IMG/VR virus record: IMGVR_UViG_3300030450_002596
Coordinates: 1 to 33,621 of that record
Direction: 5' to 3' (one strand)
Length of the DNA: 33,621 nt
From: a virus
Each line of letters begins with the position of its first letter. Position 1 is the first letter of the stretch. This document shows positions 15,236 to 33,621 of this stretch, in pieces. The notes beneath the pieces were generated by a model. It saw nothing but the letters and a program-made list of their open reading frames with translations, was not told the DNA's origin and ran no database searches. A program made the position numbers and the translations under genes.

Positions 15236-15418
15236 TTATTTGGTTTTCTTTACTTCTTTTTTTACTTCTTTAGGTTTATCAAACTTCACATTAGCTTTTT
15301 GACCTGGTCTGTGTCTAACCTTATCCGTTACATCTATCCAATCAGATGGAACTTGATCCACATCTTTGTCATTTACTATTCTAAGTTTTGGAAACCTATC
15401 AACTTTATAATATTTCAT
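15236..15418 (-). CDS. Small Lys-rich protein after the tail tube gene, 60 aa
   Basis: The ATG at 15418 follows GGAGAAATGA. The protein has a short folded part (YYKVDRFPKLRIVNDKDV..DWIDVTDKVRHRPG) and a basic tail (KPKEVKKEVKKTK). It sits 13 bases after the tail tube gene. The gene directly after the major capsid gene has the same plan (54 residues, Lys-rich tail), an echo of the leader shared by the two large proteins. Could be a decoration or assembly factor; unproven. Confidence 0.5.
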   Translation of the reverse strand: MKYYKVDRFPKLRIVNDKDVDQVPSDWIDVTDKVRHRPGQKANVKFDKPKEVKKEVKKTK

Positions 15419-15431
15419 TCATTTCTCCTTT

Positions 15432-16841
15432 TTACGCTGTTGCCCCTACACCTAAGTGTAGAATTTCATAAGTTGCTGCAGCAGGATCAAGAATCTTAGC
15501 TTCAAAATCAATAGAAGCCACATCATCACTCCCTACAGAAGCACTAATTAATTTAGCTTTATGGAATATCCATTGAAGTGTAGCCCCTGCATTTTGCCCT
15601 AAAGTTATATTCTGTGGGAAAACTGCACCTACAGCAGGTAAATTTGTAGGAACATAATCTCCTATATAAAACTGAATATAAGATGTTTGCGCTGGGTCTC
15701 TATGAGCTTCTAGCAATTTATCTGTTTCTGAGTCATATTTAACAGAACCTGCCATTGTCATATTTAGCTCAGGAACAGCTCTAGCAATCACTTCAGGTTC
15801 AGCATTATCACCTTGAGCGCCTAAAAATACTGTTGGTGACTCAAAAGTTAGACTGATGCTGTTAAACAAAGGATTTATACTTGTATAGTCACTTACAAAA
15901 GTAAGATTACCACTAACAGTCCCTGAATTAGCTACTGAGGCTACAAATGTTGTGCCATCAGTTATAGAAACAACATAAGCATTAGTGCCAATATTTGTTC
16001 CCGTAACGGACATTCCTGGTTTTACATTTGCTGTAGAAGCACAAGTAACAGTTGTACTTGAACCACTACCACCCCCTGAACCAACCGTTAAATCAGCATC
16101 AACATCAAATATTTCTAACGATTTGTGTGATTGTTCAGATAGAAACACATTTGTCGCATTAATATCAGTTGCACTTGACATACTAGCTGTTCCTTTAACA
16201 GGTTTATATCTAGTTTTAAAGGTTGCAGAATAATCGTACCTTCCACTTGCAGTTCCCATATCAGCACTCAATGTTAGACTTGTGCATACGCATCCTGCTA
16301 ATTTGTATGAATCAGAATTTGAGCTACCTGCAGGTGACTGAAAATATACTGACAAAGATAAATGCCAATCATTTGCAGTCACAGAAGCCCCATGAGATAT
16401 ATTTGCTGGTTCATATCCACCTGCAGCTAAAGTTATTTCATTATCAGTACCTGATGTTTGTGCAAGTACGCTCTCTGCAAGTATTGGTAAGCTTCCCAAG
16501 TCTAATCTGCCTGATATTGTAAACTCCGTATCTACACCTTTTGAGCTTGAAAACATAGCTCCAAATTCTGCCACTCTACCTGAGCCTGAACGCATTTCAA
16601 ACTCTTGGTTTGGTGTAAAAGTTGGTAATGTAATCCCCTCTACATCTAGTCTTTGAAATTCATCTCCATTACTTGAGGTGTTAAATGTCCCAACAGTATC
16701 ATCTTCAGCAATATATACAGCAAATTGCTTCCCTGAGAATGTCGTCGCATTAGCAGATCCACCATAATCTGCCATCTGAAGGTGGTTTCCAGCATAACCA
16801 TTATGCACCCACCCTTGTATATTGTTTAATAGCTTATTCAT
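15432..16841 (-). CDS. Major tail (tube) protein, 469 aa, with capsid-like N-terminal leader
   Basis: The ATG follows AAAGGAG. Residues 1-24 are almost the same as the start of the major capsid protein: identical at 19 of 24 positions, including GWVHNG at 10-15 and LQMA at 21-24. The rest is beta-rich. A Gly/Ser linker (VGSGGGSGSS) near residue 255 leads into a small beta domain (VKPGMSVTGTNIGTNAYVV) of the kind inserted as decoration in phage tube proteins. Position before the chaperones and tape measure supports tail tube. The leader is the odd part: it is not expected from a shared fold. Confidence 0.75.
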   Translation of the reverse strand: MNKLLNNIQGWVHNGYAGNHLQMADYGGSANATTFSGKQFAVYIAEDDTVGTFNTSSNGDEFQRLDVEGITLPTFTPNQEFEMRSGSGRVAEFGAMFSSSKGVDTEFTISGRLDLGSLPILAESVLAQTSGTDNEITLAAGGYEPANISHGASVTANDWHLSLSVYFQSPAGSSNSDSYKLAGCVCTSLTLSADMGTASGRYDYSATFKTRYKPVKGTASMSSATDINATNVFLSEQSHKSLEIFDVDADLTVGSGGGSGSSTTVTCASTANVKPGMSVTGTNIGTNAYVVSITDGTTFVASVANSGTVSGNLTFVSDYTSINPLFNSISLTFESPTVFLGAQGDNAEPEVIARAVPELNMTMAGSVKYDSETDKLLEAHRDPAQTSYIQFYIGDYVPTNLPAVGAVFPQNITLGQNAGATLQWIFHKAKLISASVGSDDVASIDFEAKILDPAAATYEILHLGVGATA

Positions 16842-16861
16842 TTTTTTTCTCCTTTATGTAT

Positions 16862-17299
16862 TTAGCTCATGTTCCCTGTATGTTGCCCTCTCCATATCAT
16901 TTCCACAACATATTCGTTCTCGTCTTCCAATGTATCTAATGTAGTTGAATCAATCCTTGTATTCAACGCCTTTGTTGAGTCGGCTAGGGTCATGATCAAA
17001 TTATCGTGAATTAAAGCCTCAATCCTCGATACATATCTTAACACATGGTCAAGCGAAGTCTTTTTTATATTTTTATCTAAAAAATAATAATAAATATTTA
17101 TAGTAAATTCTCTAGTTTCAGAATTAGCTTTAAATTCAACCAATTCAGATCCTTGAGGTTCTAGTCTAATAAATTGCGTTCCTGCCTGTACTGATTCATT
17201 CCCTATATATACAGGAACTGCGCCCTTAAATTCTGTTCTTAAAATGTTCTGTAATTTATCAAGAATATTCTTAAAGTTGTTAGTAAAAGTTACAGCCAT
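16862..17299 (-). CDS. Tail terminator / tail completion protein candidate, 145 aa
   Basis: The 145-residue protein has an N-terminal helix (NNFKNILDKLQNILRTEF), then alternating strands with VPVYIGNE and FTINIYYYFLD, and a second helix region, the alpha-beta layout of small tail terminator proteins of the gpU or HK97 gp10-neighbour type. It lies between the connector-like protein and the tail tube protein, the usual place. It starts two bases after the upstream stop. No diagnostic motif. Confidence 0.5.
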   Translation of the reverse strand: MAVTFTNNFKNILDKLQNILRTEFKGAVPVYIGNESVQAGTQFIRLEPQGSELVEFKANSETREFTINIYYYFLDKNIKKTSLDHVLRYVSRIEALIHDNLIMTLADSTKALNTRIDSTTLDTLEDENEYVVEMIWRGQHTGNMS

Positions 17300-17301
17300 T
17301 A

Positions 17302-18555
17302 TTAAATTCTTCCAGTTCTAGTCATTTTTATTCCTTTTAAGTCGCTGGTATCAACTTCTTCATACATTCCTCTTACTTCAACTTCCCATTCATCTGTCGC
17401 AACAGCTTCTGAAGCATCTGTAGTTCCAGCGAATCTAATTTCCAGACCATAAGCTAAAGTCTGATAATCTCCAGTTATTTTCTCATCATCTACGACTTTG
17501 TTTTGTTTTAATCCATCGCTATCTTTTACCCATACATTATATGTTGCTGTGCCTATAGCTCCAGCATCTTCTATTTCTAATTTAACTAAGTCATAATCAA
17601 CACCACCAGCTCTACCTCTAAAATCTACTGGTCTAATAGCTCCAGTGTAAGTAACATCTCTAAGTACACCCCTAGAAGCATCTCCTGTGTTCTGCCAAGA
17701 TAGTGCTGCCCTACCTTCATTTAAAAGCTGTACATTATTATCAGCTTCTTCCATTATTGCCGCAGCTAATTCAGATGTAGGGTCTTTAGTTCTAACCATA
17801 AAAGCAGCAGCGTATAGTGATGCTGTTCTTACTATCATATAGTCAAAGTTCCCATTTTTATCTTTTAGCTGATTCTTTGGGAGCTTAGGATCAAGTCTTG
17901 AATCTAAATATCTACTTGCATCTGTTCTGAATTGGGTTACCATATCAGTGAAATCTTCGCCTGCCTCTAGCAAGTAATCGGCTGGTTCGTTTGCATCGCC
18001 AACATTACTTACTATAAGTATAGATAAGTCCAAAGACGAATCATATACAAAACTCAAAGCATCTATCCCCCCTGAAGAAGCATCACCAACATCAACACTT
18101 GCATCCACTATCTTATAGACACTTGAATCTACTGCATGGTGATGTGCGGTTGTATGAAATAAACCCCTATTAGTAGCTGCTGTTGCCACAGCCAAAGTAT
18201 CGCCATCAGTAACTGCTGTCACACGCATATATTCGTTATTAATTTTAATTATATCATTTGCTGCAAAAGCGCTTGTATCATCTACATCTATGTTTACATT
18301 ATCTGGTGTAATGGCAGTTTTAACTTGAGTTGTTTCAGTTGTGTTGAAGGCTATATTGTTAATTTTTGCGCCATCCCAAAATAAATTATATACACGTCCA
18401 GTATTGTTAGCAAAATATAAATCAATACTTGTATCCAGCCAATTATCTATGGCTTTTGTCCACCCATAAACTGGAGTCTTGCCATCAAACTCATCTAACT
18501 GAGGAAATACTCTCTTTAATTCTTTGTGCGTGCAATATATTGGTGCTGATGCCAT
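17302..18555 (-). CDS. Head-tail connector-like structural protein, 417 aa
   Basis: The start (CTHKELKRVFPQLDEFDGK) and the helical centre (VRTASLYAAAFMVRTKDPTS, then EEADNNVQLLNEGRAALSW) resemble adaptor proteins of the gp6 type that dock under the portal. A beta module is inserted at about residues 78-147 (VDDTSAFAANDIIKINNEYM to HTTAHHHAVD) and is also present in the next structural gene upstream (18663-20216). The C-terminal part is again beta-rich. The ribosome site AGGAGATAAAT overlaps the preceding small gene's end. Confidence 0.55.
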   Translation of the reverse strand: MASAPIYCTHKELKRVFPQLDEFDGKTPVYGWTKAIDNWLDTSIDLYFANNTGRVYNLFWDGAKINNIAFNTTETTQVKTAITPDNVNIDVDDTSAFAANDIIKINNEYMRVTAVTDGDTLAVATAATNRGLFHTTAHHHAVDSSVYKIVDASVDVGDASSGGIDALSFVYDSSLDLSILIVSNVGDANEPADYLLEAGEDFTDMVTQFRTDASRYLDSRLDPKLPKNQLKDKNGNFDYMIVRTASLYAAAFMVRTKDPTSELAAAIMEEADNNVQLLNEGRAALSWQNTGDASRGVLRDVTYTGAIRPVDFRGRAGGVDYDLVKLEIEDAGAIGTATYNVWVKDSDGLKQNKVVDDEKITGDYQTLAYGLEIRFAGTTDASEAVATDEWEVEVRGMYEEVDTSDLKGIKMTRTGRI

Positions 18556-18557
18556 AT

Positions 18558-18653
18558 TTATCTCCTCTTAATGGATTTTCTTTTCATTTTCATTTTCTTA
18601 GACTTCTTAGGTCTTCCTCTTTTTTTTCCGTATGTACCTTTACCGTATGGCAT
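18558..18653 (-). CDS. Tiny basic protein, 31 aa
   Basis: Start ATG 18653 follows TAGGAGATAATT. The product begins MPYGKGTYG and is then nearly all Lys and Arg with a GRPKKSKK segment, an AT-hook-like core. It ends three bases before the connector start. It is probably a DNA- or RNA-binding or virion-packaged peptide. Very short basic proteins with this MPYGKGTYG start are, to my memory, common beside structural genes in marine-type phages, though I cannot verify that here. Confidence 0.65.
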   Translation of the reverse strand: MPYGKGTYGKKRGRPKKSKKMKMKRKSIKRR

Positions 18654-18662
18654 AATTATCTC

Positions 18663-20216
18663 CTAAAATGTTTCTATTTTTAATACTGCGTTACCTTTTT
18701 GCTGTGGGGTATTCCCAAGCACTTCAATAAGCGAATTAATTTTAGCTGAATCTGTTGCATCTTGTTTTCCAGATAGTGGAGAATTGTACAATGCGCTAAC
18801 AACAAATTCTGCATTAGGACAACTACTAATAGTCCAATCTACAGCTCCAGTTTCATAATTAATACTTCCAACGTCAGAACCTCTATACATCAGTATTCCA
18901 TATCCATTATCTCTTACAAATATATCTTTATAAGATGTTGAATAAGTTACTGAGTCGTAAGCAGTATCAACCTCAAGTCTAGCAGCTACCGCACTTGGAA
19001 TACTAGCCAATGCTGGGATTCTTCCATTTGCTTGAGCTAGGAATCTAACTGATGCTCCACTACCACTTGTTCCAGCAGTTAAAGCTATTGCCGAAGTTGA
19101 AAGTTTAGTTTGAGATTCAAATATAACATCTCCGTCTTTGATAGACACATTTACTTTCTTTTCAAATAAGTTTCCTGCTGTGTAGTAAGCTGTATCTAAA
19201 GCATTTTGTATTTTTTCTATTAATCCATTTGATCCACCAAACTTGGTATTACTTGAATCTGTTGTAAAATTAATTTCAAGAGCAGAGCCACCATCTGCCG
19301 CTACCGTTAGATAATATGCGGTTGAAGCAGTTAGACCAGTTTCTGTATTTGGCGTAATATCAGATAAGCCAAGACCTTGATAGCCTTTAGTATAAAACTG
19401 TATTGCTACTGAGCCTGGAGTTATACCGCATAGTGCTGAGGATGTTCTTCCATATCCAAAGAAATTCATAGCCTTAAATCTGCCACGACCATCTGTCTGA
19501 GCTACACTATACCTATCATAATCGTGATAAGCGTTAAAAAATGGAAGCCTAACAGCTACATCATCAGCGTGAGTTGCACCCGTAGATCCATGAACGCCTC
19601 TTTTTACTGTGATTGTACTATTAGCCAAGTCAGCTCCAGTGCCAACTGTCAATACTTCAAGTATTTCATTCTCAAGCCTAATTAAATCTCCAGCCCTAAG
19701 AAATTTAGAGTGTCCATTTTCTAAATATATAGTTGTGACTGTTGCATCTGAAGCAACATCTCCAGATGTGGCTGTGTCTATATCTGCTGTAGAATCAACG
19801 TATTCATTAGAGTTTGGAGCTGTTGATGTAACTACATCGCCTTCATATAGGTCTGTGTCAGCATCGGTCATTATTCCTCTAACTGCTGGCATCGTGATTA
19901 CTTCCCCAGGGCTTAATAAGAAATGTAAGAAGTTTTCGTTTCCAATAGTATCTTCATCTGTCCATTGTTGAAATCCAAAAATTGCTATAGCTGGGAAGCT
20001 TCCAGTATTAGAAACCTTAACCATAGAAATATCGCCAGACTTTTGCGCTGAAGCGCTAGCATCTTTACTTATGTCTAATAATAAATCGTTAGTTGTTGCG
20101 CTATATGCCAAGGACTTACTAACTGAAGATATGGGCTTCTTAGCTTTTCTACCTTTACCCCTAATACCTTCAAAGCCGCCTGAAGCGCCTGCTGTTGTTG
20201 TTGCTCCATAACCCAT
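18663..20216 (-). CDS. Virion structural protein, 517 aa
   Basis: The Ser-, Thr- and Ala-rich beta protein starts after AGGAGAAGAATT. It includes the module LRAGDLIRLENEILEVLTVG...VKRGVHGSTGATHADDVAVRL at about residues 172-228, matching the insert in the connector-like protein, and a later segment with a Gly-rich core. It has no enzymatic motif. Position between fibre-like proteins and the connector suggests a neck, decoration or tail appendage role. No family identified with confidence. Confidence 0.55.
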   Translation of the reverse strand: MGYGATTTAGASGGFEGIRGKGRKAKKPISSVSKSLAYSATTNDLLLDISKDASASAQKSGDISMVKVSNTGSFPAIAIFGFQQWTDEDTIGNENFLHFLLSPGEVITMPAVRGIMTDADTDLYEGDVVTSTAPNSNEYVDSTADIDTATSGDVASDATVTTIYLENGHSKFLRAGDLIRLENEILEVLTVGTGADLANSTITVKRGVHGSTGATHADDVAVRLPFFNAYHDYDRYSVAQTDGRGRFKAMNFFGYGRTSSALCGITPGSVAIQFYTKGYQGLGLSDITPNTETGLTASTAYYLTVAADGGSALEINFTTDSSNTKFGGSNGLIEKIQNALDTAYYTAGNLFEKKVNVSIKDGDVIFESQTKLSTSAIALTAGTSGSGASVRFLAQANGRIPALASIPSAVAARLEVDTAYDSVTYSTSYKDIFVRDNGYGILMYRGSDVGSINYETGAVDWTISSCPNAEFVVSALYNSPLSGKQDATDSAKINSLIEVLGNTPQQKGNAVLKIETF

Positions 20217-20226
20217 AATTCTTCTC

Positions 20227-21018
20227 CTACGTTAAATGATATTTTACTGTTAATTGTACCGAATAATCAGAATTAATACTATCTGATCTAAAAAATGCTA
20301 AAATTACCTTTCCTGACGAAACTGCTGCGCTATCTACTGTCCAAGAACCAGTATATGCTTGTTCATTACCTGCGTTAGTTACATCATTGTTGTGTGCCAA
20401 TAATGTTCCATTTGATAGGGCAGATGTTGATCCGCTTGTAAAATCATAGCTAAATAAGTGCATCCGAGTTGTATCTCCAGTTGCGTTATCTGCACCTTCT
20501 ATACTTATTACAGAATCTATACTTATATCGTCCATTACATACCAAAGGCAAGGGACAATGTCTGTAGCCATCTGTTTATTTGAGTCTGCTGTTGTAAACG
20601 AGGTAGCAGGATCAGTTCCAGTTCCAAACGCAGGAATACCAGTTAAGGCATTATTATAATTATCTCCTGCAAATGCAAGTGGATGATGAGTATTCGCTAA
20701 ATAAGCTGATGCCCCTCCACTTCTTATGGCAAAGGTAGCATACTGAGTATTTACATCGTTCCCCAAAGCATTAACCCTACTATCTGTAGTATTAACATCA
20801 AATAATGTTGTGCCACTATTGTTGGTAACTAAAAATGTTGCAGCAGTATTATCATTGACTGGTTGAACCCCAAATATATCATCACTAATACTTACTGCTG
20901 TCTGATTCCCTTCTCCATCTCTTATTCTTCTCGTTGTTGCATCTACACCATTATTTGAATTATCAACTTGCAATAAGTCCTTATATGTATCTGCTAATGT
21001 TTTTCCAGTTAAACTCAT
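20227..21018 (-). CDS. Fibre-like virion protein, 263 aa
   Basis: The protein starts MSLTGKTLADTYKDLLQVDN, with a helix that looks like a trimer-forming or attachment segment, followed by GVDATTRRIRDGEGNQTAVSIS, a motif seen at the start of phage fibre and head-fibre proteins. The rest is beta-rich, ending YSVQLTVKYHLT. It lies directly downstream of the other fibre-like gene with a strong AGGGAGAT site. A receptor-binding or head-fibre role is plausible; the ligand is unknown. Confidence 0.55.
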   Translation of the reverse strand: MSLTGKTLADTYKDLLQVDNSNNGVDATTRRIRDGEGNQTAVSISDDIFGVQPVNDNTAATFLVTNNSGTTLFDVNTTDSRVNALGNDVNTQYATFAIRSGGASAYLANTHHPLAFAGDNYNNALTGIPAFGTGTDPATSFTTADSNKQMATDIVPCLWYVMDDISIDSVISIEGADNATGDTTRMHLFSYDFTSGSTSALSNGTLLAHNNDVTNAGNEQAYTGSWTVDSAAVSSGKVILAFFRSDSINSDYSVQLTVKYHLT

Positions 21019-21027
21019 ATATCTCCC

Positions 21028-21690
21028 TTATTGACCATCATATATTGATGATGGTAATATTGTTGCCTTTATAATAAATGGATGCTCACCTATACCATGC
21101 GATGCTCTATACCCATAAGTTAAATAGGCAGTTTTAGTTACACCCGCAGTTGAAAAGCCTATCCAAAATTCGTTATTCTCCCCAACTGAAGCTAATTGAC
21201 TTGCACCTAAAACAAATTTAATGGTTTTTAAGTGGTCATCAACTTCATCGTCTGTGAAAAATACTCCATTCCCATCATATTCAAGATTCGATGCAACCGC
21301 ACTATATGTAGAGCTATCACTTAAACCAACCTCAATCCTTGTATCTGTACTATTTGCATTTATTAAAAATGTCGCCTCTATCTCAACGCTTTCAGTAGAT
21401 GGCGTTATGAATGAAACTTTATGTGTCGCATCTTCAACTGTTAATGAGTTTTGTATCTCAAAACTACTTGTGCTAGTTAAATCTCCTTCTAGCCTTGTAT
21501 ATCCTATAATTTTACCTGCAAAATCATTGTCATCAACATATTTCTTTGTCGCAACGTGATAATCATCTGTCGGGTCTTTTTCCACAAACACATCATTGTC
21601 TGCAAGAAGAAGTCCAGTAGAGTCTTCTCCAACCTTAACTGGTTTTTTATCTGAAGCTAATTTATTTTCTAATGATAAAGCCCTAGCCAT
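21028..21690 (-). CDS. Tail or head fibre-like protein, 220 aa
   Basis: The N-terminal region contains DPTDDYHVATKKYVDD (about residues 38-53), a repeat found in many phage fibres (DPTx2xxVATKKYVD). The rest is a beta-rich, soluble domain ending ILPSSIYDGQ. I use ATG 21690, which overlaps the previous stop (TGATG); the TTG three bases upstream is less likely. It follows the lysis and membrane protein cluster and starts the fibre pair. Confidence 0.65.
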   Translation of the reverse strand: MARALSLENKLASDKKPVKVGEDSTGLLLADNDVFVEKDPTDDYHVATKKYVDDNDFAGKIIGYTRLEGDLTSTSSFEIQNSLTVEDATHKVSFITPSTESVEIEATFLINANSTDTRIEVGLSDSSTYSAVASNLEYDGNGVFFTDDEVDDHLKTIKFVLGASQLASVGENNEFWIGFSTAGVTKTAYLTYGYRASHGIGEHPFIIKATILPSSIYDGQ

Positions 21691-21911
21691 CAATCTGTGC
21701 CTTCATAATTTTTCATACCTTTGAACTGCTCGACAAATGTTTTTGTCTCTAAATCTTCTAATCTTTTATGTATCTTATTTAGCTGGCTTTTTTCAAAGAG
21801 AGGGGAATGAGATTCATTCTCAAGCTTAGTTAATCTCTTATGAATGTTTATCATCCCCTCATCTACTTGCCATATAGGGAAAAGTTTATTTGCCAGCCAC
21901 CTTATTATCAC
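21690..21911 (-). CDS. Small coiled-coil protein, 73 aa
   Basis: It starts at GTG 21911 inside the end of the preceding gene. The N-terminus has a short hydrophobic patch (IIRWLANKLFPIW), followed by two similar heptad-rich segments: NIHKRLTKLENE and KIHKRLEDLETK. The repeat of the IHKRL unit suggests a small coiled coil, possibly anchored to the inner membrane. It belongs to the cluster of holin-like genes. Function unknown. Confidence 0.5.
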   Translation of the reverse strand: MIIRWLANKLFPIWQVDEGMINIHKRLTKLENESHSPLFEKSQLNKIHKRLEDLETKTFVEQFKGMKNYEGTD

Positions 21912-22194
21912 TTCTAAGTCCCTTTATAAAACCTCTAATTACAGAGCCGAAAATATTATCTACTAAATCTATAAACCATGGCTCTATTGTCTTATTCCAA
22001 ACCTTTTTAGTGATACTCCATTTATTTAAACCTAATGTCATTACCCTGCCAATACTCTCAAAGGCAGTTTCAATGACTGAGCAGATATGCTCGTTGGGTA
22101 TCTTCTTTAATACCCATAATACGATAGCTGATCCGCCACCGCCTACTATTAAACCTGAATTTTCACCTAACATTCCTAATACTGAATCTAACAT
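21886..22194 (-). CDS. Holin-like membrane protein candidate, 102 aa
   Basis: The protein has a hydrophobic segment near residues 12-30 (NSGLIVGGGGSAIVLWVLKK) and an amphipathic C-terminal half with a basic end (LRSDNKVAGK). One N-terminal transmembrane helix is clear; a second is weak. It is one of four neighbouring small membrane or coiled-coil genes beside the lysozyme and phosphoesterase, so a role in lysis is likely, but holins are too diverse to name one. Confidence 0.5.
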   Translation of the reverse strand: MLDSVLGMLGENSGLIVGGGGSAIVLWVLKKIPNEHICSVIETAFESIGRVMTLGLNKWSITKKVWNKTIEPWFIDLVDNIFGSVIRGFIKGLRSDNKVAGK

Positions 22195-22208
22195 ACGTTA
22201 TCTCCTTT

Positions 22209-22505
22209 TTAATAATCTTTGTGTCGTTTATTCATAAACTTCTCTTTAAGTCCATTTCCACTCATAGATGCGAGTATCTCAACTATTGCTCTATAACTCG
22301 CCTTTATATCTCTTTGTTCAAGCTGATTAACCTTACTCTGGTCTATCAGTTTTATTACTATGCCTTCCAATCTTGTGAAACTTTCTCTTAGCTCTGTTTG
22401 TAGCTCGTTTTGTATAAACTGATTTTGTCTATTGACATACCAGGCTAGACCAAGAACCCCTAAGACTGGGAGACCAAACTCTTGTAGTATTGAAAGAAAA
22501 TCCAA
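22209..22505 (-). CDS. Holin-like protein with one N-terminal membrane helix, 98 aa
   Basis: The N-terminus (FLSILQEFGLPVLGVLGLAW) is a single membrane segment followed by a helical, coiled-coil region (LQTELRESFTRLEGIVIKLI) and a charged end. This resembles BhlA/UviB-type holin-like proteins in layout. It touches the next upstream gene end to end, with no intergenic space. Confidence 0.55.
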   Translation of the reverse strand: MDFLSILQEFGLPVLGVLGLAWYVNRQNQFIQNELQTELRESFTRLEGIVIKLIDQSKVNQLEQRDIKASYRAIVEILASMSGNGLKEKFMNKRHKDY

Positions 22506-22766
22506 CTACATCTCCATAATTAATGTCTCTAGTCGGTCAAATCGTTTCATAACTTCATCAATCTTTGTTTCTATCCTTTCTTGACCTACTTCCAAACTTT
22601 GAATCTTATTTCTATTGGTTTGAATACTCTTTGATTTATCTTCATTGTCTGAAGCAATAGAGTCTATTTTATTTACCATAGCGCCTTGCGTGTATATGCA
22701 AGTAATTAAAACAGTCAATATGGTAAAAATAGTTCCAATAGATATTTTCTTATCTATCATTTTCAT
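22506..22766 (-). CDS. Membrane-anchored coiled-coil protein, 86 aa (holin or spanin-like)
   Basis: Residues ~8-28 (ISIGTIFTILTVLITCIYTQ) form one membrane helix. The rest is a coiled coil with Lys/Glu heptads (IQTNRNKIQSLEVGQERIET), as in small spanin or antiholin partners. No lipobox is seen, so an o-spanin is not supported. It stands between the phosphoesterase and the holin-like genes. Confidence 0.5.
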   Translation of the reverse strand: MKMIDKKISIGTIFTILTVLITCIYTQGAMVNKIDSIASDNEDKSKSIQTNRNKIQSLEVGQERIETKIDEVMKRFDRLETLIMEM

Positions 22767-22801
22767 AAAACCTCACCATTGGTGTGTGACTTGAAGTCCA
22801 C

Positions 22802-24016
22802 TTATACAACAACCTCGAAGATTGTTTTCTTTTTCTTTCTTTTCTCTGTTGATTTTGCATTATAAGCCTCCAATGACTCGTTAATGTCATAACCCTCACC
22901 ATCTGCGTGCTGAAGATCAACCTTTATTCCATCCCTATTACCATTCTTGTAAAATATGTAGCAATTCTGACTTGCTCTGCCATTTAAGTTGAGGGCTTTC
23001 TCACTATAATCATTTGCCCCTACCATCGAAGATGACCTACCAAAATTATCGCCCACTCTAGCTGAGTGAACGTGACCAAATATCACATAGTCAATTTTTA
23101 TGCCTTTCAGCGAATATCTGCCTGCGATTTGGTTTACTGAGGTATCTAATTTTCCTCTTAGTGAACCATGCCCATGCAGCATTAATAAATTTTGACCTGC
23201 GACATTTAGCACTAATTCTGATGGATCTCCATGTATGAATTTAACACTATTTTTCCTAAATAAATACCTTAAACATTGAAAAATTGTATAATCATAATTA
23301 TCTGTCGCTACAACATCACTCCAGCCCATTTCCTTGTTCGCTCTACCTTCATTACCTACAACCGATGCGACAGTTACATTAAAATCATCAGATAGGTCTA
23401 TAATAGCTTGTTGCAATATGTCCACCCCAAGAAATGTGGCTTTAGCTCTATTCGTAGCTTGATTTAAAAGCTCATCTAGCCTTCTATCACTATTCATAAG
23501 GTCACCTGTCAATGCCACTACCATATTACTCACGCCTGCTGTCTTAAAATAGGTTCTAGCCTTATTTACAAAATATCTTATTCGTGTTGAAGCAACTTTG
23601 AAATCATATCTGTTGTTTTCTAATTCCACCAACTCGTTGAAGTGGACATCTGATAATTGCAATACTCCTACTGCATTTTTATTAGACTTAAACTTTCTAG
23701 TTGTTGTGTTTAATTTGTTTTTGTCAAAAAGCTTTACTAATTCCTTAGAATACTCCTCTACTGCGTTCTCAATTCTAGCGTGTTCACGAAACGCTTTGTT
23801 TTGTATTCTGTTGTTGTCCTGTGCTTTTTGTTTCTGCTTAGATAATCTTACATTCTCTCGTATGACATCGTGATCAGCATCCCATATAGGCACAACTGTC
23901 TTTGACCGACATTTGATACAACCATACCTTTGCTTGTCTGTTGTAGCGCACTTTCCCTGCTTAGACAATCCTATATGGTAGCAATTAGGACAAACTAACT
24001 TCTTTGGGTCTATCAT
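22802..24016 (-). CDS. Metallophosphoesterase with N-terminal zinc ribbon, 404 aa
   Basis: The N-terminus has Cys9-x2-Cys12 and Cys33-x2-Cys36 in a zinc-ribbon arrangement. The calcineurin-like phosphoesterase motifs follow in order: SDVH (D123, H125), GD (171-172), GNEGR (221-225, where the family usually has GNH), HGH (281-283) and GHVH (314-317). A helical linker with many Lys and Glu joins the two parts. It probably is a phosphodiesterase acting on nucleic acid or a nucleotide. In the late operon, next to the lysozyme, it could act on host DNA, cell-envelope phosphates or packaged DNA. The ribosome site GGAGGTCA is strong. Confidence 0.8.
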   Translation of the reverse strand: MIDPKKLVCPNCYHIGLSKQGKCATTDKQRYGCIKCRSKTVVPIWDADHDVIRENVRLSKQKQKAQDNNRIQNKAFREHARIENAVEEYSKELVKLFDKNKLNTTTRKFKSNKNAVGVLQLSDVHFNELVELENNRYDFKVASTRIRYFVNKARTYFKTAGVSNMVVALTGDLMNSDRRLDELLNQATNRAKATFLGVDILQQAIIDLSDDFNVTVASVVGNEGRANKEMGWSDVVATDNYDYTIFQCLRYLFRKNSVKFIHGDPSELVLNVAGQNLLMLHGHGSLRGKLDTSVNQIAGRYSLKGIKIDYVIFGHVHSARVGDNFGRSSSMVGANDYSEKALNLNGRASQNCYIFYKNGNRDGIKVDLQHADGEGYDINESLEAYNAKSTEKRKKKKTIFEVVV

Positions 24017-24034
24017 TGACCTCCTGGCTTTGCG

Positions 24035-24460
24035 TTATTGCGACTTTATAATTTCGCTTAATTCTTTAGCCCTATTAGGACTATCTGACCTCGCCCATTT
24101 ACTATCGAGCATCTCCTCCGCAGCCATTAAAAAGTTATCTTCTTTAATGTATTTTATAGTTTTCTTAAATTTTTTAACGCCAGAAAAGCCTATTTGGAAA
24201 ATCATATTGACTAAAACGTCTTGAACTGGCTCTTGTTTATCAAAAAACCAAGAGTCCCAATCCTCATCTCCTTGTATTCTGGCTAATATACCTCGTATTT
24301 TCTTGTCGAGGATCAAGTCTGCAATTTCTTCATCCATAAATAAATCTTTAATTGCAAATCCATAGCCTATAGTATCGTAACCATTAGGGCATTTATATAC
24401 ACGAGGTTCGTAGCCTTCGTGCTTCTTTAACGATTCTTTTAAATTGCCTAGGTCTCTCAT
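24035..24460 (-). CDS. GH24 lysozyme (endolysin), 141 aa
   Basis: The T4-lysozyme-type catalytic pattern Glu-x8-(Asp/Cys)-x5-Thr is present as Glu15, Cys24 and Thr30 (HEGYEPRVYKCPNGYDTIGY). The Cys variant is established in P1 Lyz-like enzymes. Downstream helices (VLVNMIFQIGFSGVKKF, MAAEEMLDSKWA) match the family core. It has no signal peptide or SAR segment, so release needs one of the nearby holin-like proteins. Its start overlaps the preceding gene as ATGA. Confidence 0.88.
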   Translation of the reverse strand: MRDLGNLKESLKKHEGYEPRVYKCPNGYDTIGYGFAIKDLFMDEEIADLILDKKIRGILARIQGDEDWDSWFFDKQEPVQDVLVNMIFQIGFSGVKKFKKTIKYIKEDNFLMAAEEMLDSKWARSDSPNRAKELSEIIKSQ

Positions 24461-24621
24461 TTTTTTTTACCCCAGTCAATTTTATCGTAGTTCTTTTTAT
24501 ACTGTTCATCTGCCAAATCTATTCTCAACCAGTCACCTTTTCCATTCCTGTTTAAATCTCCTTTTTTTCTTATCACTCTATATTGACCAGTAGTTGAGTT
24601 TGCGTGTGGGTTAGCAGCCAT
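24457..24621 (-). CDS. Small hypothetical protein, 54 aa
   Basis: I use ATG 24621, just after the preceding TAG, rather than the longer reading frame that would run into the previous gene. The product reads MAANPHANSTTGQYRVIRKK and ends DKIDWGKKK. It is basic, polar and without cysteines. It lies between the capsid-following gene and the lysozyme and overlaps the lysozyme start by four bases. Function unknown. Confidence 0.55.
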   Translation of the reverse strand: MAANPHANSTTGQYRVIRKKGDLNRNGKGDWLRIDLADEQYKKNYDKIDWGKKK

Positions 24622-24622
24622 A

Positions 24623-24787
24623 CTATTTACCCTTCTTTGATGCCTTCTTTGGCTCAGAGTATGGAGAAAAATCCTTTCTGCCATTTACTCTATGCCATAA
24701 TCCTGATTCAACTAAATTTTTTGCTTCTTTTGTATCTGAATCTTTTAACACAGCTATGTTTCCACCAATATTTTTTAAATATATCAT
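24623..24787 (-). CDS. Small Lys-rich protein after the capsid gene, 54 aa
   Basis: ATG 24787 has GGAG upstream (ATGGAGAATTT), and the longer frame would run through the terminator hairpin. The protein has a compact strand-helix part (IYLKNIGGNIAVLKDSDTKE...LVESGLWHRV) and a Lys-rich tail (EPKKASKKGK). In size and tail it resembles the gene after the tail tube protein (15236-15418), though the folded parts are not alike. It could be a capsid decoration protein. Confidence 0.55.
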   Translation of the reverse strand: MIYLKNIGGNIAVLKDSDTKEAKNLVESGLWHRVNGRKDFSPYSEPKKASKKGK

Positions 24788-24804
24788 AAATTCTCCATTT
24801 GAAT

Positions 24805-24830
24805 AAAGGGGGCAGTTGCCCACCCCCTTT
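24805..24830 (-). terminator. Hairpin after the major capsid gene
   Basis: AAAGGGGG and CCCCCTTT (24805-24812 and 24823-24830) form an eight-base-pair, GC-rich stem with a ten-base loop, 20 bases downstream of the capsid stop and 18 bases before the next start. A short T-rich tract (TTTATT) follows on the transcribed strand. It is probably a partial terminator or a stabiliser that raises capsid mRNA relative to the genes downstream. Confidence 0.55.
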
Positions 24831-24849
24831 AGTATTAACAACTTACTGA

Positions 24850-25824
24850 TTATGAAGCATTAACAAAATTAAGTCCCATTAAGTTTGTTGCACTATCTAG
24901 TAGTTTAACTCCATATATCATGTCTGCGATTACTTTAGTACCAAGGTAATCAACATCATATTGTGATTGTAGTCTTACATCTTGAGATGCAGCGAAGGCA
25001 CAAGCCTCGGGTACATATACAGCTCCACTTCTATTTGTTCCCCCAGTTGATATAGCTTGAGAGAAAAATACATTCATGCCATATATAAGTCCTACAGCGC
25101 CAGTAGAAACATGGCTTCCAGAAGCAGCGTTTGTTCCTGAAGGGATTGCATCTTGTCTTACAAAGTAAGAGCCAATTCCTGCTGTTGGATTTAATATGTC
25201 TGCAAGTAACAAGTGATTAACTGCCATTGAGCATCTATTCGGATCTATATCTAGGTTATAGAGACTTGCTAGTATGCTTTCCAAGTCAGCAGTAGCCATA
25301 GCATCATCTGCTGTTAGAGTTACTGTTGTCTGGAATCCATCTAGTTCTGCCCATAGATCTGTTTCAACTTTTCTAGCTAAAGACTCACCGAACATTTTAG
25401 CATATTTACTAATTAGTTCATATTGAGCTTGTATTGTAAGTATATCTTCAAATATCTCAGCTTGATAAATGTGAGATGTTATTGGAAGGTTTACTGCTGT
25501 TACATCGTGAGCTTGAGGTGTAGAACCCTTATTTGTGTCCCAAGCAACTGCTGAAGATCCAGTTTTTGACTGCGCAGTTTGCATTAAGATTGCAGGGATG
25601 TTAATAGAGTCACCTTTGTTTTTTACTAATGCACTATAATCGCTAACAGAACCTCTAAGTTTATTAGTTTGCATAAAGAAGCTATATATAGCATCCGACC
25701 ATAAATCTGGTATAAATCCAGCACCAGATGTTGTATCCATAAGGTCACCAACTGCCATTTGCAAGTCATTACCCGCAGCACCATTATGAACCCAACCTTC
25801 AATTTTATTTAATAAATAATTCAT
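24850..25824 (-). CDS. Major capsid protein, 324 aa, with leader shared with the tail tube protein
   Basis: Start ATG 25824 follows AAGGAG and a small TACCT/AGGTA hairpin (25835-25848). Residues 1-24 are the leader shared with the tail tube protein (GWVHNG at 10-15, LQMA at 21-24). The body matches HK97-type major capsid proteins: IPDLWSDAIYSFFMQTNKL near 38, an E-loop-like strand region SINIPAILMQTAQ, SHIYQAEIFEDILTIQAQYE, a long spine helix, and a C-terminal P-domain with MAVNHLLLADIL and GTKVIADMIYGVKLL. A scaffold gene is upstream. No prohead protease is seen. Confidence 0.82.
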   Translation of the reverse strand: MNYLLNKIEGWVHNGAAGNDLQMAVGDLMDTTSGAGFIPDLWSDAIYSFFMQTNKLRGSVSDYSALVKNKGDSINIPAILMQTAQSKTGSSAVAWDTNKGSTPQAHDVTAVNLPITSHIYQAEIFEDILTIQAQYELISKYAKMFGESLARKVETDLWAELDGFQTTVTLTADDAMATADLESILASLYNLDIDPNRCSMAVNHLLLADILNPTAGIGSYFVRQDAIPSGTNAASGSHVSTGAVGLIYGMNVFFSQAISTGGTNRSGAVYVPEACAFAASQDVRLQSQYDVDYLGTKVIADMIYGVKLLDSATNLMGLNFVNAS

Positions 25825-25850
25825 TGTTTCTCCTTACCTGAAAAGGTAGT

Positions 25851-30682: not shown

Positions 30683-30803
30683 TCTTTTTCCTTTTTTTAG
30701 TTTCATATTCTTCACCTATCATATACGCTACAGCCCAACCGTTTGGGGTACTATTGTAATAATCTCTCCACTGCTGTATTTTAACCCATGTCGCTTTATT
30801 CAT
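30666..30803 (-). CDS. Small protein, 45 aa, Trp-rich start and basic end
   Basis: The ATG at 30803 is preceded by GGAGAAAATATTGGA. The N-terminal part (TWVKIQQWRDYYNSTPNGWA) is aromatic and the C-terminal part basic (TKKRKKNEKRI). It overlaps the next gene by 17 bases and the previous by eight. Function unknown. It is part of the compact reverse-strand block after the small terminase. Confidence 0.5.
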   Translation of the reverse strand: MNKATWVKIQQWRDYYNSTPNGWAVAYMIGEEYETKKRKKNEKRI

Positions 30804-31026
30804 TCCAATATTTTCTCCTGTAGTACGCCTTTATGAAGTTATCTGCCTTTCTTTTCTTCCGCAATACCAGTTTATTTGACTTTGTACGATAAAAATCTTT
30901 TTCTTCCCAATTACATACGACATTTGGGACTATACCAATTAAATTAGGGTTATTACAGTTATGAATCTCCTCAATAGGCTGAAATATCAATAATGCGGCA
31001 AAATAATAACCCATAATCTCAATCAT
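30796..31026 (-). CDS. Hypothetical protein, 76 aa
   Basis: The ATG at 31026 overlaps the preceding TGA (ATGA), so I prefer it to the longer frame that reaches into the terminase gene. The start is hydrophobic (MIEIMGYYFAALLIFQP), possibly a weak membrane helix. The middle has HNCNNPNLIGIVPNVVCNW and the end is basic (LVLRKKRKADNFIKAYYRRK). Two Cys and one His could bind a metal. No family recognised. Confidence 0.55.
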   Translation of the reverse strand: MIEIMGYYFAALLIFQPIEEIHNCNNPNLIGIVPNVVCNWEEKDFYRTKSNKLVLRKKRKADNFIKAYYRRKYWNE

Positions 31027-31676
31027 TTGTTCTTTTCTCGCAATTCTCGCTCTTTTTTCTGTATAGACTTGATCCACTGCTCTTTTGTAGCCTTTGTAGG
31101 TCTTCCACCCGTCAAATTAGGTATTCCAGCAGCTTTAGCTCGCTTTTTCCAGTGGTACATCTTATTTCTATTAACTTTCCTGCGCAATTTATGCTTCTCA
31201 CGCTTAATAGTCGTATATTCACTCTTTTCACGCTTCTTTTGGTCTTCAATCTTACGCTCTGGAAGCTCAACATCTGGTATCTCTGGTATATCCTCAACAA
31301 TATCCTGCACCTCAGCATCTATAAACTCTACCTCAGCTTTATCTGCCTTTAGATACTTCTCAAAAGGACTGTCTATAGTGACGTTTATATTCTTAACAAG
31401 TTTTCCACTATGCTCCAGGACTAATCTTGCAGCTTGGACATTACCCGCCTTAGCTTCCCTAATCATAGACTTTAAAACAGCAGGTATATCCGTTCCAAAT
31501 TCAATCATATAAAGCTCATATACCATATCTACGAAGTTTGGGTCTCTACGCCAAGCAACTACCGTATTTTGATGAACTCCGAGCTTTTTAGCTATAACTG
31601 ATACCGAAATATCAGGATCAAATGCCATCATCTCTGCTGCACGTTGCCTCTCTTTTATTTTAGCGATGTTTGCCAT
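31023..31676 (-). CDS. Probable terminase small subunit, 217 aa
   Basis: The N-terminus is a helix-turn-helix (DISVSVIAKKLGVHQNTVVA, about residues 22-41), followed by RRDPNF and a helical region (AKAGNVQAARLVLEHSGKL) typical of phBC6A51-like small terminase subunits that bind the packaging site. Then comes an acidic linker (EFIDAEVQDIVEDIPEIPDV) and a basic C-terminal region (KLRRKVNRNKMYHWKKRAK). It lies on the strand opposite to, and 3.9 kb from, the large subunit, so a transcription regulator is an alternative reading. Its mRNA appears leaderless. Confidence 0.68.
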   Translation of the reverse strand: MANIAKIKERQRAAEMMAFDPDISVSVIAKKLGVHQNTVVAWRRDPNFVDMVYELYMIEFGTDIPAVLKSMIREAKAGNVQAARLVLEHSGKLVKNINVTIDSPFEKYLKADKAEVEFIDAEVQDIVEDIPEIPDVELPERKIEDQKKREKSEYTTIKREKHKLRRKVNRNKMYHWKKRAKAAGIPNLTGGRPTKATKEQWIKSIQKKERELREKNK

Positions 31677-33375: not shown

Positions 33376-33549
33376 ATGAGTAAAACATACAATGCAACTA
33401 TAAAAATAGAATTTGATTATAGTTTTGAATCTAGGAATAAAAAAGAAGCTATAAGTTTTATTAAAGATAATTTCAAAGATGATTATGGTATTGAATTGGA
33501 AGATCACGAAATTATAAAATTGGAAGCCGTAAAATGCGAGGAGAAGTGA
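33376..33549 (+). CDS. Small hypothetical protein, 57 aa (complete copy)
   Basis: AAAGGAG precedes ATG 33376. The charged, helix-and-strand protein (MSKTYNATIKIEFDYSFESR to KLEAVKCEEK) is the intact version of the partial gene at 1-134. Its TGA overlaps the ATG of the next gene, whereas in the left copy a 29-residue membrane gene lies between them. Function unknown. Confidence 0.75.
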   Translation: MSKTYNATIKIEFDYSFESRNKKEAISFIKDNFKDDYGIELEDHEIIKLEAVKCEEK

Positions 33550-33621
33550 TGGTAATAGATATATCGTTAAATTGTTTGATCTGTATATGTGTAACTATAA
33601 TTATAACTTGCTTTTTAAAAA
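33413..33621. repeat. Right copy of imperfect terminal redundancy (matches 1-297)
   Basis: See the left copy for the alignment: 126 bases with three substitutions, then a ~90-base gap relative to the left copy, then 73 identical bases up to the window end. The differences alter three codons or the C-terminus of the encoded protein and remove one small gene, so the ends belong to two haplotypes of the same locus. Confidence 0.85.
33549..33621 (+). CDS. Cys-rich membrane peptide, cut by the window end
   Basis: The frame from ATG 33549 is identical to the gene at 225-302 over 73 bases and is cut after 24 codons by the end of the window. The ribosome site GAGGAGAA lies inside the preceding gene. 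It is evidence for the circular join rather than a separate gene. Confidence 0.6.
   Translation, partial: MVIDISLNCLICICVTIIITCFLK

Follow-up and report, generated by a model that had tools for sequence, protein, structure and literature searches.

Why do the major capsid protein (MCP) and the tail tube protein (TTP) of one uncultured phage, two proteins of different fold, start with almost the same residues? The window, by which we mean the whole stretch of DNA analysed, is 33,621 nucleotides long and carries 60 predicted genes. The features on which the question turns are the following.

1-33,621: the window, IMG/VR virus record IMGVR_UViG_3300030450_002596
24850..25824, minus strand: MCP, leader included, 324 aa, HK97 fold (phrog_267 and AlphaFold model)
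25753..25824, minus strand: MCP leader, codons 1-24, MNYLLNKIEGWVHNGAAGNDLQMA (sequence; leaderless homologues)
25825..25835, minus strand: Shine-Dalgarno region of the MCP leader start, aaggagaaaca (sequence)
15432..16841, minus strand: TTP, leader included, 469 aa, T5 pb6-type fold (Foldseek; leaderless homologues)
16770..16841, minus strand: TTP leader, codons 1-24, MNKLLNNIQGWVHNGYAGNHLQMA, of the YAGNH class (sequence; class comparison)
16842..16855, minus strand: Shine-Dalgarno region of the TTP leader start, aaaggagaaaaaaa (sequence)
24623-24841, minus strand: small Lys-rich protein gene after the MCP
15236-15418, minus strand: small Lys-rich protein gene after the TTP

Two window proteins with one N-terminus

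The two N-termini are identical at 19 of 24 residues, as the first-pass annotation of this DNA had claimed, and at 10 of these 19 (L4, N6, I8, G10, V12, A17, G18, N19, L21 and Q22) the codons differ synonymously. The best other pair of N-terminal 24-mers among the 60 predicted genes shares 7 residues, which rules out a chance resemblance. The conserved core of the MCP leader comprises codons 1-20, and the leaderless form of the protein begins at Met23 (MAVGDLMD). The small Lys-rich genes that had been noted after both the MCP and the TTP are indeed there; they are not tied to the leader, because relatives of the MCP-side gene also occur in four leaderless relatives. The ends of the window are repeated (1-209 and 33413-33621, 77 bases exact and then imperfect), which suggests a phage genome that is closed and nearly complete.

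The MCP matches phrog_267 (2.7e-22) and its AlphaFold model resembles solved phage capsids with the HK97 capsid fold, while the TTP has Foldseek matches to the tail tubes of T5 and P74-26. In both models the leader has a pLDDT <50 (residues 1-34 of the MCP, 1-33 of the TTP), and a low-confidence helix at residues 3-14 of the MCP model is absent from the TTP model. Structure prediction thus agrees with the earlier view that the folds differ, and the leader belongs to neither; its disorder and the differing folds rule out that it is part of a common fold.

Promiscuous Ig-like domains of tailed phages are accessory modules that have spread horizontally over MCPs, tail tubes and other virion proteins. 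The leader resembles them as a single accessory module found on the MCP, the tail tube and other virion proteins, whereas Ig-like modules are folded and have roughly 80-100 residues and the leader is a 20-residue peptide without a predicted fold. It is not an Ig-like beta-sandwich: it has 23 residues and a pLDDT <50, and it gave no Pfam match above the cut-off and none in PDB sequences, nor was it found in annotated phages or open-access papers. Like the HK97 delta domain, it is an N-terminal extension of the MCP outside the mature fold; however, the delta domain has about 100 residues, a scaffold role and an S78 protease partner, and the leader is 20 residues long, with neither S78 nor S77 giving a match. 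Where the gene upstream of the MCP lies and how it is made up suggest that it encodes a separate scaffold.

Carriers of the leader and its gain and loss

When 2.9 million viral contigs were scanned with DNA patterns and profiles and a leader HMM was applied in six frames, 37 non-identical coding sequences for the leader emerged, all from uncultured phages and every one at Met1, with the consensus MN-x-LLNNIQGW[VAT][HQ]NG[YP][AM]GN[HD] over about 20 residues. The HMM scores them at 27-53 bits at Met1, and the best other match in related contigs reaches about 9.5. The carriers are 31 MCPs, the window TTP and five other virion-type proteins, and they form seven mutually unlinked groups by similarity of their bodies. 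The 31 MCPs are linked to one another, with matched pairs 21-97% identical, and those tested match phrog_267, phrog_544 only, or nothing. The five remaining carriers (L043/G014, L044/G015, L031/G010, L140/G054 and L199) have no body link to the MCPs or the TTP, and those of L043/G014 and L044/G015 are homologous (40%). All five adjoin very long genes or sit in putative ejection-protein clusters. They are probably ejection proteins, a label that we draw from gene order and make-up since none of the five matched a protein family. The proposal that the leader is portable, conserved at the protein level and carried by proteins whose folds differ is borne out.

Every leader-bearing contig searched has one leader, with the exception of the window, which has two. 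Repeated ends of about 55-210 bases, imperfect in some cases, are present in the window, G007, G009, G010, G012, G014, G046, G048 and G054, and less clearly in G006, suggesting that these ten contigs are closed or nearly so (G006, again, less clearly). The MCP-TTP pair that first drew attention to the leader is thus real but not general: since other contigs have one leader and related tail tubes have none, the pair within one genome is an exception among leader-bearing contigs. The wider phenomenon is a leader that moves among the virion proteins of many phages.

In an MCP tree computed without the leader, in which long branches meet and the deep part is unsure, MCPs with and without the leader interleave, and well supported branches force at least seven gains or losses. 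Sister pairs with and without the leader are L029/L019, L198/G056, L190/G011, L201/G041 and L112/G021. Within the clade of the window MCP, bodies are 81-90% identical. L001 and L002 retain the leader, the MCPs of G003, L009 and L012 are leaderless and start with MAVGDLMD, and those of L003-L008, L011 and L013 have unrelated extensions at the leader position. The close relatives that are leaderless or have an unrelated leader are 81-88% identical. Nearly identical capsids with and without the leader form natural pairs. Outside the MCPs, an ejection-type protein of G015 has the leader, and the homologue in G030, 65% identical to it, does not.

The unrelated extensions are of two kinds. A hydrophobic one, M[ED][FL]T[IF]L...GG placed directly before AVGDL, occurs in L003 (6948-7019), L004, L005, L006, L007 and L013, and MFNIQNEIGFEGGNRFVVAQHRYVMNFQF occurs in L008 (643-729) and L011. 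Both were sought on other proteins and not found there.

Tail tubes of related phages, some of which have the leader on their MCP, start with MA.. and are leaderless, so that the leader of the window TTP is a private gain. This TTP leader (YAGNH, then LQMAD) is by eye nearest to the G007-type MCP leaders (YAGNHLMAD). The MCP and TTP leaders of the window differ from each other at pS 0.73 and pN 0.15. A recent duplication of a gene end within the window genome is disfavoured by these strongly different synonymous sites and by a TTP leader of a class seen on the MCPs of other phages.

The first-pass annotation had held that relatives lacking the leader in either protein would refute it. Such relatives exist on both sides: those of the MCP lack the leader or have swapped it, and those of the TTP lack it. 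With the leader gained or lost at least seven times and present on new carriers in other phages, we take leaderless relatives to mean mobility of the leader, not irrelevance. Judging by these comparisons of sequences, phages have acquired the leader, shed it and exchanged it in one piece.

Selection on the leader peptide

Averaged over leader codons 2-20, pS amounts to 0.65 and pN to 0.15; in the YAGNH class the values are 0.62 and 0.046. The ratio pN/pS is thus about 0.2 overall and 0.07 in the YAGNH class, at a synonymous divergence near saturation. All 37 leaders have Gly15, Gly18 and Asn19 as well as an aromatic residue at position 11, while the codons for Gly, Val, Ile, Asn and Gln vary. 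It had been proposed from the window alone that the protein sequence rather than the DNA is kept, and the wider set agrees, with synonymous sites near saturation and residue changes rare. An RNA or DNA element is ruled out by the near-saturated synonymous sites.

These values also bear on whether the leader matters at all. It could be a neutral N-terminal addition, spread by recombination at start codons and tolerated on a flexible N-arm, as the close MCP relatives with an unrelated extension or none at the leader position might suggest; we consider this very unlikely, since pN/pS is low despite the synonymous divergence and one peptide recurs on unrelated proteins where random extensions would be expected. 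The leader is rather a 20-residue peptide that can move as a unit between the virion proteins of phages with no other relationship, and it is under strong selection.

A strong Shine-Dalgarno sequence precedes most leaders, and the Leu codons are almost all TTA. Together with an N14 codon that is always AAT, this would fit an expression element, in which phages took up the first 20-odd codons with the ribosome-binding site because these initiate translation efficiently, the peptide being a by-product. Such an origin is highly improbable, however, as residues are kept at near-saturated synonymous sites and the sequences upstream of the leaders are variable except for the Shine-Dalgarno. The codon of Asn14 is AAT in 26 of 26 leaders, and other conserved Asn codons are AAC in about 20-30%; the constant AAT possibly reflects nucleotide-level constraint or shared ancestry.

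Possible readers of the leader

We tentatively favour the idea that the leader may be an N-terminal signal read by a host factor, similar in its working to the Prp/L27 system and distinct from it in motif. In this scheme, a leader module of about 20 residues would be fused in frame before the start of a leaderless virion protein. A host factor would recognise the amphipathic stretch (L4, L5, I8, W11, V12) and the NGxxGN[HD] turn on the emerging nascent protein, and would then either remove the leader, with candidate sites at W11 or at the N19/H20 end, or chaperone the carrier into assembly. The leader is conserved on unrelated carriers and in phages of unlike gene content, no phage gene is associated with it and four protease families were not found; for these reasons, the factor that reads it is more likely to be host-encoded.

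The four families are Prp, S78, ClpP and S77. No match was found to Prp or S78 (PF04327, PF04586) in 21 contigs, or to ClpP or S77 (PF00574, PF03420) in 14 contigs, and among these families the phages have no visible prohead protease of their own. No gene cluster was significantly tied to leader-bearing contigs either, in a small sample (17 versus 11) that was partly chosen by the leader.

In Staphylococcus aureus and related bacteria, the host protease Prp trims ribosomal protein L27 and the capsid and scaffold proteins of phage 80alpha at a conserved N-terminal motif (PMC5744158), MLxx(D/N)LQ(F/L)F'A(S/H)KK (PMC9405229). A Prp-type motif is also found on the capsid protein of phage 80 and the major tail protein of phi13 (PMC5744158). 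In 80alpha, cleavage of the capsid protein is dispensable and the N-terminus of the scaffold is essential, and the authors suggested a common chaperone for the N-terminus (PMC5744158). The statement that no such case had been described was therefore too strong, as capsid, scaffold and major tail proteins of Firmicutes phages share a Prp-cut motif with the host L27 (PMC5744158, PMC9405229).

In both cases, virion proteins that are not homologous share a short conserved motif at the N-terminus, and a phage prohead protease is lacking there and was not found here among the families sought. The Prp motif itself is not matched: the leader reads N-I-Q-G-W-(V/A/T)-(H/Q)-N-G, and agreement is limited to (N/D)-(I/L)-Q-x-aromatic, for which reason we say that it may work like the Prp class and do not claim membership. 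The leader is also longer (20 residues), is conserved on either side of W11, has Gly at P2 and lacks the KK. Its phages are uncultured and, unlike Prp phages, usually have one carrier per genome and include putative ejection proteins among the carriers. The Prp motif has host copies on L27 (and FlhB), whereas a scan with GW[VI] variants found no L27-like host copy of the leader. The leader would thus be a second, independent case beside the poorly understood Prp-type N-terminal motifs, which opens common principles (chaperone, host processing, payload) to comparison. A portable N-terminal motif on virion proteins is already known.

The same observations allow for a payload acting in trans, in which the leader itself is the effector. 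Exchanged horizontally and mounted on an abundant or injected virion protein, it would bind and inhibit a conserved target in the host (a defence protein, protease or chaperone) or serve as its adaptor, and the carrier would provide only dose and timing. One leader per contig on unrelated carriers, the window excepted, is consistent with this, as are the nine other leader-bearing contigs with repeated ends that appear closed or nearly so, the carrier homologues that do without the leader and its very strong protein conservation. A payload would not explain why the leader must sit at the very start of a virion protein, inhibitors in arms races usually diversify, and the window has two leaders; overall we regard it as rather unlikely. 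The single leader per genome and the leaderless homologues of the carriers nevertheless fit a signal that the carrier needs no better than a trans-acting peptide, and the two readings are not separable from sequence. If the trans-acting reading is true, something new is a real possibility.

A third kind of reader would lie inside the particle. As an inward-facing docking tag, the leader on MCP, ejection proteins and tube would hold a packaged factor or DNA inside, consistent with carriers that are MCPs, internal-type proteins and a tube protein and with a leader predicted to be flexible. We consider it improbable, because no phage gene is common and restricted to leader-bearing contigs and the leader, unlike a DNA-binding arm, has hardly any charge and is rich in Asn.

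If, as we favour, the leader marks a host factor, it could serve as bait for that factor and as a possible host-group marker for uncultured phages. Clues to the host were sought in several ways. A scan of an 84,980-species collection for host proteins with GW[VI][HQ]NGxxGN returned three matches, of which one lies inside a Mycolicibacterium reading frame and none makes a convincing leader. The leader HMM had no match in 395 genomes of the phylum of Phaeocystidibacter, a search with no positive control that weighs little. No tRNA genes were found, and the nearest named phages are too distant to point to a host.

One small gene recurs in these phages:

30796-31077, minus strand: small membrane protein family, IEEIHNCNNPN..VxCxW..DF, widespread in these phages

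In a first sample it was present in 8 of 13 contigs with the leader and in 0 of 5 without, and among contigs of at least 18 kb in 12 of 17 versus 5 of 11. Of another 37 contigs with this gene, nine have the leader, so it is not exclusive and was rejected as a leader-linked gene. It occurs in siphovirus-like and in G014/G015-type phages and is perhaps a marker of a host group.

Other modules are present in the virion proteins of the window. Inserted modules that match PHROG families without a known function lie at residues 244-320 of the TTP, residues 71-150 of the protein encoded at 17302-18555 and residues 136-223 of that at 18663-20216. Two of these module-bearing proteins match phrog_7578, and inserts of this type appear to be a second kind of promiscuous module.
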